From Acetobacterium woodii (lineage in GTDB: Bacteria; Bacillota; Clostridia; Eubacteriales; Eubacteriaceae), in NCBI GenBank assembly GCA_016213825.1, contig JACQZP010000016.1, positions 62,001 through 126,000 of the forward strand: DNA of 64,000 bases. The letters run 5' to 3'. Both the position numbers and the translations under genes were made by a program. This document shows, in pieces, positions 10,705 through 14,013 of the stretch; positions within the stretch are counted from its first letter, which is position 1; each line of letters opens with the position of its first letter. Below the pieces are notes generated by a model that was given only the letters and a program-made list of their open reading frames with translations, did no database searches and had not been told where the DNA came from.

Positions 10705-11868
10705 TTATACATAAATAATGTTTACTTCTTTATTAAAGTAACGCAGCATATCAATCAGTTTTTGGGTCACCCGCCATTTGGTTGTGAGTTCTTCGGGAAA
10801 ATCCGGGTTTTGATGAGCCGGATTAATTGAATTTCCCATGATTAGATCAATGGTAGTGGCTTCATTAAATAACAGATTAGCCAACATCGACGCCCCGTTG
10901 TTTTCCTGAAATATTTCCCGACCAACCCGGTTATGAATGTAGTCATCACAGATGCGAATGGTTTCCTGCATGGTTAGTACCCCTTCGGTGACTAAATCAA
11001 TCCCTTTGATCCGGGCAATCGGTGGCACTCGATCCGACATGGTTTTAAAATCAACCACGATTTCTTCCCCGAATTCTCTGGCGATAATATTAGCGGCCGT
11101 TCCGCCACAAATAACCTTCTTGCCCCGGCCCCGTTCCATTAACCGCTTAATTTCAGCATCTTTATCCATATCCAGTGGGGGACCGGAAAACATTGTGACA
11201 TATTTCCGTTCTTCGACCTTAATCACTGCGACGGTGGTATCATCCCCTGGTTCTTCGCCATAAAGATTATAACAGGTATCCACCAGAGACATGGAAATAT
11301 CCTTAGCTTTTTTATTCTCATAAGATCGCGCTAACAGATAATCGGCTGCTTCTTCCCATTGCCAGCCAAAATTCAAAATACTGCCGATCCCGGCATGAAT
11401 AACCCCGTCACTGAAAAAAGCCATAATGTCACCTTTTTCAATCTCCATACTGGTCTCATAAACAGATTTTCCCTGAAATTCGATTGCCTGACGATCCAGT
11501 TCAATAATCTCGCCATCCCGGATAAACACCAGCGGGGGATTATCAAATTCCAGAATATAGGCCATCCGGTTTCTAAACACCTGGACAATCGTAAAAGTGG
11601 AATAAGCCAATTTACGGACACTGCACTTCGGCAGGGTCGCTTCCAGGGTTTCCAGCACATCCATAATTCCCATTTTTTCTTCCAGCATGGTCGCCGCAAT
11701 GGTGGATGTCAGAGTTGCCAGAATATTGGCCTTGACCCCGCTCCCCAAACCATCAGCCAGCACCACAATGACGCTTTCGTCATTAATCCGAACTTCAACA
11801 TTATCGCCGCAAAGCTCCTCATGAACCTTATTGACACTATCACTGGCAATATCCATAAATAAAGGCAT
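10705..11868 (-). CDS. SpoIIE-type PP2C protein phosphatase of the sensory hydrogenase operon
   Basis: 387 aa. The N-terminal 215 residues form a SpoIIE/PP2C phosphatase domain: CGDNVEV, ADGLGSGVKAN, MAFFSDGV and EPGDDTTVAVI carry the metal-binding aspartates. The rest (about 170 residues) contains CGGTAANIIARE, which is found in the C-terminal region of similar hydrogenase-linked phosphatases and is of unknown role. The start ATG overlaps the hydrogenase stop codon at 11868, which implies translational coupling. No membrane segment is seen. By context it is probably the output of an H2 or redox sensor. The phosphoprotein substrate is not in the window. Confidence 0.88.
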   Translation of the reverse strand: MPLFMDIASDSVNKVHEELCGDNVEVRINDESVIVVLADGLGSGVKANILATLTSTIAATMLEEKMGIMDVLETLEATLPKCSVRKLAYSTFTIVQVFRNRMAYILEFDNPPLVFIRDGEIIELDRQAIEFQGKSVYETSMEIEKGDIMAFFSDGVIHAGIGSILNFGWQWEEAADYLLARSYENKKAKDISMSLVDTCYNLYGEEPGDDTTVAVIKVEERKYVTMFSGPPLDMDKDAEIKRLMERGRGKKVICGGTAANIIAREFGEEIVVDFKTMSDRVPPIARIKGIDLVTEGVLTMQETIRICDDYIHNRVGREIFQENNGASMLANLLFNEATTIDLIMGNSINPAHQNPDFPEELTTKWRVTQKLIDMLRYFNKEVNIIYV

Positions 11869-13571
11869 TAAAGTTCAACCTCCCGACTGGTCACAACTTT
11901 CTGGAGTTTGGTTAAGGTCACCTTTGTTTCAGCCGTTGTTTCTCCCAGCAATCCGGCGATTTCATGGGCAACCCGCATTTGTTTGTCAATAACTCGCTGC
12001 GCCATCTTCAAGGTTTCCTCCTGCATCTTCAGCAAGTCCTGTTCCTGTTTTTCCTGTTTGGTAATATCGATAAAAATACCCATATATAATTCCTGTTCAG
12101 GAATATATGTCAGGATTTCCATGAAAGTTCGGTTCTCTCGTTCATAATGGCCTTTTCCAGTATAGATATAATGCTTCTCATAGTTTAACTTCTTAAACGG
12201 ATTATAATCCAGGGCATCGATGAAATTGTAACGCATCACGTCCTCCCGTTTCATATTAAAGAGCCGTTCAGCGGCAGCGTTGAATTCAATGATCCGGAAC
12301 TTTTTATCCAGTACTGCAATGGCGTTGGGCGTGGTGGTAATAATCAGATTTGAAATGGCTTCGCTCTTGCTGGAAATCAATGGCAGACACATATCCAGTT
12401 CCGCCATATTCCAATAAACAGCTCTAGCCTTATCCCGACAGGTTTCATAACCGCAGGTACCACAATTGAGCTCATCTCGTTCGGTGAATTTTGACATTTG
12501 ATTCAGAATATTTACAATTTCTTCTTCCGGTACTTCCCCCAAATGATGAACCGGCCGTTTACGGAACGAACGTTTGGTATCAATTTCAGGAATCGCTTCG
12601 TTAGGCTGCTTTTTACTGTTCATATCAATATACGTTTGGAGCATTTCGACCTTTTCATATTTAGATAAAGGACTGTGCAGATTACCCGGTCCATTAACAC
12701 AGCCTTCTTCGCAGGTATTCATTTCAATCCAGTATTTTTTATCCAACTGATGTATTTCATCTAAAAACTGCATACAGTTTTTAACCCCATCGATGCGCAG
12801 AATTTTCCGGCTACCATCTAAATTTTCGACACTATTCCTAGCCAGTCCACCGGTTATCGGATAGAGCCGTCCCGTATTGGTTCCGATGGCATTGAAATCT
12901 TCCGCCGGCATTTTTTTGGGAATAATATTTTCTTCTTTGATCCAGGCATCAATTTCATCAAAGGTCAGCACACCATCAATGACACCGCGGACATCCTTGT
13001 CATGCACTTCCATTTTTTTTGCCAGACAGGAACCGGCATAAACGATTTTTGCATTCGGGTATTTTTCCCGCAAAATTTTTCCATGCGCAATCATTGGTGA
13101 CACTTCCCGGCTCAGTGACGATACATACTGCGGATAATAGATTTCAATCAGATTTTTAATACCCGCACAGGATGAGGAAATCACAAACTTTTTGTCACTG
13201 TAATATTCCTTAGCATAGGCATTCGCCACAATTTCCGCACCAATTGATGTTTCTTCAATGATATCAAATCCCAGTTCCCGCAGAATCCCCAGATATTGTC
13301 TGGGATGATCCAGGTAATACGCCGTTGGAAAAACAGCGGATAAGCTCAAAACAACCTGTTCTGTTTTTAGCCATTCCTTGATTGTTTTAACATCACTGTG
13401 AATTTCTTTAGCATTATGGGGACAGGTGGCAATACAAATACCACAGCCAATACACATCAATTGGATAATTTGAGCATGCTTGTCCTTTAACTTAATCGCC
13501 TTGACCGGACAATTTCGAATACATTTATAACAATTACGACATTTCTCTTTTGAAAAATTGATGATACTCAA
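11868..13571 (-). CDS. Putative H2-sensing [FeFe]-hydrogenase with PAS domain (group C-like)
   Basis: 567 aa. Domains in order: two 4Fe-4S ferredoxin motifs (C11/14/17/21 and C40/43/46/50); H-cluster domain (about 75-320) with ligands C135 (motif SSSCAG), C182 (GSCLAKKME), C287 and C291 (MNTCEEGC); an extra 4Fe-4S module (C370, C373, C378, C395); a PAS domain (about 405-500, NAIAVLDKKFRIIEFN); and a coiled-coil tail. The proton-relay cysteine of catalytic enzymes (TSCCP) is replaced by serine, and the usual MPCxxKKxE is GSCLAKKME. Both changes fit sensory rather than catalytic hydrogenases. It lies between a 2Fe-2S protein gene and a SpoIIE phosphatase, the context described for putative H2 sensors such as HydS of Ruminococcus albus. 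Function is inferred. Confidence 0.88.
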   Translation of the reverse strand: MSIINFSKEKCRNCYKCIRNCPVKAIKLKDKHAQIIQLMCIGCGICIATCPHNAKEIHSDVKTIKEWLKTEQVVLSLSAVFPTAYYLDHPRQYLGILRELGFDIIEETSIGAEIVANAYAKEYYSDKKFVISSSCAGIKNLIEIYYPQYVSSLSREVSPMIAHGKILREKYPNAKIVYAGSCLAKKMEVHDKDVRGVIDGVLTFDEIDAWIKEENIIPKKMPAEDFNAIGTNTGRLYPITGGLARNSVENLDGSRKILRIDGVKNCMQFLDEIHQLDKKYWIEMNTCEEGCVNGPGNLHSPLSKYEKVEMLQTYIDMNSKKQPNEAIPEIDTKRSFRKRPVHHLGEVPEEEIVNILNQMSKFTERDELNCGTCGYETCRDKARAVYWNMAELDMCLPLISSKSEAISNLIITTTPNAIAVLDKKFRIIEFNAAAERLFNMKREDVMRYNFIDALDYNPFKKLNYEKHYIYTGKGHYERENRTFMEILTYIPEQELYMGIFIDITKQEKQEQDLLKMQEETLKMAQRVIDKQMRVAHEIAGLLGETTAETKVTLTKLQKVVTSREVEL

Positions 13572-13810
13572 TTAGTTTTCCCCCAAATTTTTTCGAAAAT
13601 TTCTTCCACATTTTCAGCTGAAACGGCATAGATGATGTCATCACATTCGACAGCAACCCCCTCTGTGCATTTTCCCATGCAAAATGATCCGACCAATTCA
13701 ACATCATTCTTAAGTCCCCGTTGGTCAATGATCTGATTTAATGCTTGAACTACCTTATAAGATCCATTCACATGACAGGAACTGCCAACACATACTCTTA
13801 TTGTCTTCAT
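13568..13810 (-). CDS. Thioredoxin-like [2Fe-2S] ferredoxin (NuoE-like)
   Basis: 80 aa. The four cluster cysteines are arranged as CX4C (CVGSSC, near residues 7-12) and CX3C (CMGKC, near residues 44-48), as in NuoE/HndA-type thioredoxin-like 2Fe-2S domains. This is a stand-alone domain without the N-terminal helical bundle of full NuoE. The start at 13810 follows GAGGAATATGTG. The stop overlaps the hydrogenase start. It probably passes electrons to or from the sensory hydrogenase. Confidence 0.85.
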   Translation of the reverse strand: MKTIRVCVGSSCHVNGSYKVVQALNQIIDQRGLKNDVELVGSFCMGKCTEGVAVECDDIIYAVSAENVEEIFEKIWGKTN

Positions 13811-14013
13811 CACATATTCCTCTTTAAAATATTCTATTTGTTTCATGGTATCATCACATTTTTTGTCTGTCAACGCCTGAGCAAAAATGTCATGGTATAA
13901 ATAAGAATAACCGAATTCCTCCAAAATAAGGATAAAATTCTGAATAAAAATTATAATACCCTTAATTTTTTTAAATTACCGCTCTTTTATCATCTTCTAC
14001 CAATAAATTTCCA

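Follow-up and report, generated by a model that had tools for sequence, protein, structure and literature searches.

A probable phosphatase-linked sensory [FeFe]-hydrogenase module in Acetobacterium, its near-invariant sensor tail and an uncharacterised phosphatase domain

How does a sensory [FeFe]-hydrogenase pass its signal on to another protein? The signal output of this class is described as unresolved (PMC13104023). The question is raised by a three-gene locus at positions 10705-13810, minus strand, of a 64,000-nucleotide stretch of Acetobacterium woodii DNA (contig JACQZP010000016.1, positions 62,001 to 126,000), which as a whole is called the window below. The genes encode a [2Fe-2S] protein, a PAS-containing [FeFe]-hydrogenase and a SpoIIE-type PP2C phosphatase, and their stop and start codons overlap. 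The open reading frames were as given in a preliminary description, which had been made from the letters of the DNA. Our results indicate that the module is an intact member of a known, little-understood kind. What is new is a near-invariant tail at the end of the sensor, the pairing of this tail with the phosphatase, and an uncharacterised domain in the phosphatase. We consider it likely that the module works as a phosphatase-linked sensory hydrogenase, in which the H2 or redox state is passed through the PAS and coil region to the tail, and the tail docks on the phosphatase and switches it. The features that carry this reading are as follows, all on the minus strand.

11868..13571, minus: group C3-type sensory [FeFe]-hydrogenase, 567 amino acids (aa), TTG start at 13571 (PF02906, tree, residues)
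12672..13358, minus: H-domain, residues ~72-300, with ligands C135, C182, C287 and C291 (alignment of 151 hydrogenases)
12387..12464, minus: C-terminal [4Fe-4S] motif Cx2Cx4Cx16C, residues 370-395 (alignment; PF04060, 6.2e-8)
12063..12359, minus: PAS domain, residues ~405-503 (PF00989, 2.2e-7, match over residues 410-455)
11904..12002, minus: near-invariant tail, residues 524-556, core QMxVAxEIAxLLGETTAETK, proposed phosphatase-docking element (conservation, spacing to the phosphatase)
10705..11868, minus: PP2C (SpoIIE-type) phosphatase, 387 aa, ATG start at 11868 (PF07228, predicted fold, conserved Asp)
10708..11205, minus: phosphatase C-terminal domain, residues ~222-387 (~165 aa), no Pfam family, Rossmann-like by prediction (alignment, predicted structure)
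13568..13810, minus: thioredoxin-like [2Fe-2S] protein, NuoE/HydC-like, 80 aa, Cys 7, 12, 44 and 48 (PF01257, four-cysteine pattern, ribosome-site-like AAAGAGG)

Class of the hydrogenase

Apart from the PAS match listed above, Pfam returned Fe_hyd_lg_C (PF02906) at 4.3e-45 for the hydrogenase. Two N-terminal [4Fe-4S] motifs lie within C11-C50, and the end of the protein past the PAS domain reads like a coil followed by the tail. The protein was aligned with its relatives after frames of 380 aa or less had been left out. The four H-cluster cysteines and the GSCLAKKM motif, both named in the preliminary description, were correct. These cysteines were kept in all 91 aligned sensory-type sequences, the window protein included, and the cysteines of the Cx2Cx4Cx16C motif were likewise kept in 91/91. 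This motif, the N-terminal [4Fe-4S] motifs, the sensor tail and the conserved C-terminal domain of the phosphatase had not been mentioned in that description.

The region that corresponds to TSCCP reads SSSCA in the window protein, with Ser134 at the proton-relay position and Cys135 as the ligand. Taking the residue equivalence from PMC8163306 and PMC10055695, Ser134, Gly180 and Asn285 stand at the positions of CpI C299, M353 and M497, and all three residues are replaced. The serine noted earlier at the relay position is therefore real, but its use as a mark of the family did not hold. Of the 91 sensory-type sequences, 51 have Cys at the relay position, 23 have Ser and 9 have Ala, and Cys remains in 38/73 once near-duplicates are removed; a value of 17% is reported for the sensory sequences of HydDB (PMC10055695). 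Since 51/91 keep the cysteine, its loss is a trait of some branches and is not diagnostic of the family. As a side observation, bifurcating-type hydrogenases (L049:12985-14805 in the genome of the window, and 8/24 group A3 sequences) have a relay Cys together with Ser in the place of ligand Cys135.

A FastTree phylogeny was calculated from 150 sequences of the loci, with the short hydrogenase fragment L095 left out. The window protein fell within a clade of 95 sensors (support 0.934), which three group D-like proteins join to give 98 members (0.999). The 98-member clade contains no group B member (26 sequences, themselves a single clade at 0.986) and no group A-type member (also 26 sequences). 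With this rooting, group A was not monophyletic (node support 0.265). The window protein thus lies outside both catalytic groups, the placement on which the preliminary description had staked its sensor reading.

Group C (M2f) is defined by the C-terminal Cx2Cx4Cx16C cluster together with a PAS domain (PMC8163306), and the window protein has both, along with the H-cluster cysteines and the altered C299, M353 and M497 positions. It resembles TmHydS of Thermotoga maritima (group C, M2f), as judged from published residues (PMC8163306, PMC10055695), in the PAS domain, the cluster motif, the three altered positions and the Gly at M353; it differs in the relay residue (Ala in TmHydS, Ser here) and at M497 (Ser in TmHydS, Asn here). 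The group D (M2e) proteins of the TamHydS type, whose relatives form the sister clade in our tree, share the C-terminal cluster motif but have no PAS domain and carry Ser/Thr at M353, whereas the window protein has a PAS domain and Gly180. HydDB describes group C3 as putatively phosphatase-linked with an undetermined role (PMC5037454), and in the window the phosphatase gene overlaps the hydrogenase gene. The window hydrogenase is supported as a sensory [FeFe]-hydrogenase of group C3 type by its agreement with this description, and a tree made of loci places it outside groups A and B.

The sensor tail and the phosphatase

The 33-residue tail was the best conserved stretch of the sensor. Its mean column identity was 0.87 in 73 non-redundant sequences, compared with 0.65 in the Fer4 region, 0.52 in the H-domain, 0.74 in the C-terminal cluster and 0.44 in the PAS domain, and the exact string GETTAETK was present in 84/91 sensory-type sequences. 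The codon test was done with 41 of 89 tail rows plus the window protein. Synonymous codon variation was 0.938 in the tail versus 0.897-0.928 in the rest of the sensor. Because synonymous codons are free in the tail, the constraint acts on the protein. The last 11 residues of the sensor, which adjoin the gene overlap, were not conserved (0.37). These two results ruled out RNA or an overlapping frame as the cause of the conservation. The best match of the tail in Pfam had E 0.014 (in 2/42 members) and that in the Protein Data Bank (PDB) E 0.97; a literature text search with two tail strings gave no match.

The distribution of the tail followed that of the phosphatase. In the order, the phosphatase was detected in 34/67 genomes, with at least 49% identity in 30; in all 30 of these close-phosphatase genomes, that of the window included, the hydrogenase gene stands immediately before it. 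The tail was found in 31/67 genomes, namely these 30 and G001, which has a distant phosphatase, so each tail-bearing genome also has the phosphatase. It was not found at E 0.01 in three other genomes with a distant phosphatase (G002, G063, G066), though their aligned sensor ends keep part of the pattern.

The search was extended to 398 genomes of the phylum. There were 140 tail matches, spread over 117 genomes, and 147 matches of the phosphatase C-terminal domain, spread over 122. A same-strand C-terminal domain follows at 677-875 bp in 135 of the 140 cases. The other five tails are the first of two tandem sensors in G425, and matches in G223, G315, G440 and G454 that lie <700 bp from a contig end on the phosphatase side. 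Five genomes gave the domain but no tail match in this search. One of them is G071, taken up below; for G138 and G420 the tail of the sensor is weak (E 4.5e-4 and 6.7e-5), the match in G459 is at a contig end, and that in G096 is short and partial. Tandem pairs of sensory hydrogenases ahead of one phosphatase were seen at L083, L089 and G425:C124.

The phosphatase matched SpoIIE (PF07228) at 4.3e-17. Its PP2C part has a predicted fold that matches the structures 3pu9, SpoIIE and RsbX, and Asp 22, 39, 154, 209 and 210 are kept in 97% or more of 81 phosphatase sequences. The predicted fold and these presumed metal-binding aspartates are those of a SpoIIE/RsbU-type phosphatase. A reduced phosphatase alignment covered 67 of the 80 loci described below; L087, which is cut by a contig end, and near-identical sequences were left out. 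In the C-terminal domain, GPP, GG, PP, TEG, N and H positions are invariant or nearly so, and the structure model has a mean predicted local distance difference test (pLDDT) score of 90.5. Foldseek gave no match to this model at E 0.001 or better. A second structural comparison gave best Z scores of 8.7 (NuoG, 7awt), 8.2 (formyltransferase/hydrolase complex, 6s6y) and 8.0 (formylmethanofuran dehydrogenase, 5t5m), values near the range that is common for models without a clear match. The best E of the sequence profile against PDB was 0.068. The domain has no Pfam family, and no literature text search was aimed at it.

In G185, G217 and G269, three genomes from a single genus, the same domain also exists alone (156-159 aa). 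There it lies between two sets of HydCBA genes, directly after the first, and the complete module is present elsewhere in the same genomes.

L199:8623-9102, L200:6945-7415 and L201:7599-8075: stand-alone copies of the phosphatase C-terminal domain

Gene neighbourhood and known systems

A scan of named genomes confirmed at least 572 relatives, and the best 80 were taken as named loci. These are not independent, as several come from closely related species, and the stretch covered around each was at most 10 kb on each side. The sensor stands directly before the phosphatase in 80/80 of them, and 57/80 also have a recognised [2Fe-2S] gene ahead of the sensor. The earlier comparison with a PAS-bearing group C sensor like HydS of Ruminococcus albus is borne out, and a phosphatase lies beside the sensor in all relatives examined, in agreement with the HydDB C3 and HydS descriptions.

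A catalytic hydrogenase, either group B or HydBA, was recognised within 10 kb of the module in 50/80 loci. A group B hydrogenase starts no more than 300 bp downstream in 24/80 and lies elsewhere in the stretch in 4 more; HydBA was found in 22. The chance expectation of a hydrogenase within 10 kb is roughly 2% by our estimate (~2-3 PF02906 matches, genomes of 1-4 Mb). Each of the 30 close-module genomes has at least three PF02906 matches, and as one of these is the sensor, two exist beside it; by hand count, 14/33 genomes of the order without the phosphatase have at least two. At L043, from a different family of the order, the gene right after the module encodes a group B hydrogenase. No second hydrogenase was recognised in the stretches from the genus of the window (L035-L037, L051, L052) or from three sister genera (L038-L040); RNase Y follows the module in all three of the sister-genus loci.

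Apart from the module and hydrogenase-subunit genes, no neighbour cluster recurs in more than 14/80 loci. Twelve unlabelled clusters occur in 5 or more loci, and five of them were annotated. The gene of a PAS-sigma54 activator, a candidate regulator by its Pfam domains, is present in 7/80 loci and lies directly downstream of the phosphatase in one of them (L137:11286-12734) and also at L208:8255-9703, outside the 80. A Rex-like redox repressor gene, so labelled from one annotated member (L127), was seen close to the module or to its HydCBA genes, in the same orientation, at L102, L121, L127, L135, L136 and L143.

In the window the TTG start of the hydrogenase shares the bases TTGA with the stop of the [2Fe-2S] gene, and the hydrogenase stop overlaps the ATG of the phosphatase by one base. 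The ATG of the [2Fe-2S] gene at 13810 is preceded by AAAGAGG, a plausible ribosome site; a longer frame from an alternative TTG start at 13924 is possible, and it was on the longer frame that PF01257 (2Fe-2S_thioredx) matched at E 3.8e-7. The four-cysteine pattern of this protein is present in 58/59 related proteins. An HD-domain gene and an amino-acid permease gene flank the module, the latter downstream and convergent. A motif scan gave one weak site upstream; the scan for promoters and terminators was not above shuffles, with 13 promoter-like sites in the region versus 10.9 (standard deviation 3.4) in shuffled sequence.

13845..13873, minus: promoter-like site TTGACA-17-TACCAT, weak (motif scan)

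By description, the module is like several known systems. HydDB C3 likewise pairs a sensory-type hydrogenase with a Ser/Thr phosphatase (PMC5037454), whereas neither the tail nor the phosphatase C-terminal domain appears in the available C3 descriptions (PMC5037454, PMC6163223). In Vallitalea guaymasensis, C3 is listed as peg.96 and group B as peg.98, with one gene number between them (PMC6163223), which fits the order hydrogenase-phosphatase-group B at the Vallitalea sp. locus L080. For Thermotoga maritima, TM1420-1422 are given as sensory M2f genes beside the hydrogenase genes TM1424-1426.

The hfsABCD operon of Thermoanaerobacterium and the hydS cluster of R. albus also look like the window module in their published descriptions (PMC5707799, PMC11837493, PMC8924675, PMC6776011). 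The former shares the PAS-hydrogenase (hfsB) and a serine-phosphatase-like gene (hfsC, whose product is called homologous to serine phosphatases in PMC11837493), shows genetic signs of regulation and also contains a group B hydrogenase (hfsD). The window has no hfsD, and a convergent amino-acid permease gene lies downstream instead. The published account of HfsA finds it unlike any known protein, so a match with the [2Fe-2S] gene of the window does not follow from that account. In Thermoanaerobacterium saccharolyticum, strains deleted for hfsA or hfsB show a higher ethanol yield and stronger adhE expression, while deleting hfsC or hfsD does not have this effect; according to the authors, hfsC and hfsD are required for high ethanol yield (PMC5707799). 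The hfsB genetics agree with a regulatory hydrogenase-phosphatase pair. In R. albus, the cluster with the PAS group C hydrogenase and a putative phosphatase falls 111-fold in co-culture (PMC6776011); the partner is cited as a kinase in one paper and as a phosphatase in another.

Signal, output and target

A working model can be proposed from these data. The H-cluster and FeS clusters would sense H2, or the ferredoxin/redox state as electron pressure, and the [2Fe-2S] protein probably exchanges electrons with the sensor. The change of state would travel via the C-terminal [4Fe-4S], PAS and coil region, and the coil past the PAS domain would present the tail to the separately encoded PP2C phosphatase, on which it may dock to switch the activity. 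The phosphatase would then dephosphorylate Ser/Thr of a target that controls catalytic hydrogenases and redox genes, at the level of expression or of activity; the C-terminal domain of the phosphatase is probably there for this target or for a ligand. The module of Acetobacterium would reach a distant target in trans. H2 rather than general redox state as the signal, the PAS domain as its passage and the direction of control are our inferences from the domain arrangement. We further suggest, more tentatively and at slightly less than even confidence, that the tail and the C-terminal domain form a signalling interface of their own: a split H2-gated phosphatase with a docking peptide acting in trans and a Rossmann-like reader of ligand or target, which would also act alone beside bifurcating hydrogenases.

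Several points weigh against the working model. In G071, a phosphatase with 42% identity and the conserved C-terminal domain (L202:7587-8726) is preceded by a DUF3810 gene and no sensor; one PF02906 match exists at another place in this genome. Instead of docking, the role of the tail could be in folding or dimerisation. The C-terminal cluster of TamHydS is reported not to be reduced by H2 (PMC13104023), which weakens a simple electron wire to the PAS domain. The sensor frame is split in one metagenome-assembled genome of a close relative (G031, the source of L074). The window module is an orphan with no hfsD-like neighbour, and 30/80 named loci have no recognised catalytic hydrogenase in the stretch of up to 10 kb. 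Three of these 30 are Acetobacterium-like, and 15 of the other 27 span at least 8 kb on both sides.

The signal may be the redox or ferredoxin state and not H2. The FeS chain and the [2Fe-2S] protein would then read electron pressure, and the H-cluster would merely equilibrate with H2. The two N-terminal [4Fe-4S] motifs, the C-terminal cluster motif and the co-encoded [2Fe-2S] protein suit such a sensor, whereas a pure FeS redox sensor would need none of the four H-cluster ligands that every one of the sensory-type sequences retains. We regard this as a possible explanation, though clearly the less likely one.

As for the output, SpoIIE-type PP2C domains usually act on STAS proteins. The phosphatase could accordingly take part in a SigB-type partner switch, dephosphorylating an RsbV-like STAS protein, so that H2 or redox state would control the release of a SigB-like sigma factor. 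The genome of the window does contain an RsbV-RsbW-SigB-like operon (G000:C2, L156:4841-6338), and STAS families were found in 8/9 module genomes tested, the ninth being 80% complete. However, RsbW relatives (E <= 1e-6), present in 49/67 genomes of the order, are missing from 4 of the 30 with the close module (26/30) and present in 23/37 of the others. No STAS family was found among the five annotated neighbour clusters, one of which is a sigma factor of the extracytoplasmic function (ECF) type in 6 loci, and four other SpoIIE-domain proteins are encoded in the genome of the window. We consider this switch improbable, and the co-occurrence of RsbW or STAS proteins with the module names no target for the phosphatase. 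A stressosome-like row of STAS, HATPase and PP2C genes was also observed in this genome (G000:C10, L154:5694-7961).

It is very unlikely that the hydrogenase is a catalytic one of low activity and that the phosphatase gene is a bystander: the relay cysteine is retained in just over half of the family and TmHydS and TamHydS turn over H2 slowly (PMC8163306, PMC10055695), but the near-fixed spacing to the phosphatase across the phylum, the PAS domain and the tail argue against it, as does the replacement of the relay cysteine and both methionines in the window protein.

Returning to the phosphatase-linked sensor, the preliminary description had suggested that it could set hydrogenase or Wood-Ljungdahl gene expression in the acetogen. 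No target can be named. The module is flanked by the HD-domain and permease genes, and the bifurcating HydA of the same genome lies in a cluster with a separate group D-like hydrogenase and HATPase genes. This hydrogenase (G000:C20, L049:7004-8347) has a C-terminal cluster, Thr at M353 and Leu at M497, and no PAS domain was found in it; HATPase and DRTGG-like genes stand beside it. It is a candidate for the own sensor of the HydABC cluster. The earlier reading was thus right in outline and is partly supported; the relay-serine argument and the acetogen target were overstated.

Because the module is an orphan in Acetobacterium, its target must be found by experiment. The tail, better conserved than the other parts of the sensor and set at near-constant spacing ahead of the same phosphatase domain throughout the phylum, offers a small, cheap target for binding and mutation tests. 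Acetogens use H2 as a main substrate, and the module could set hydrogenase use there.

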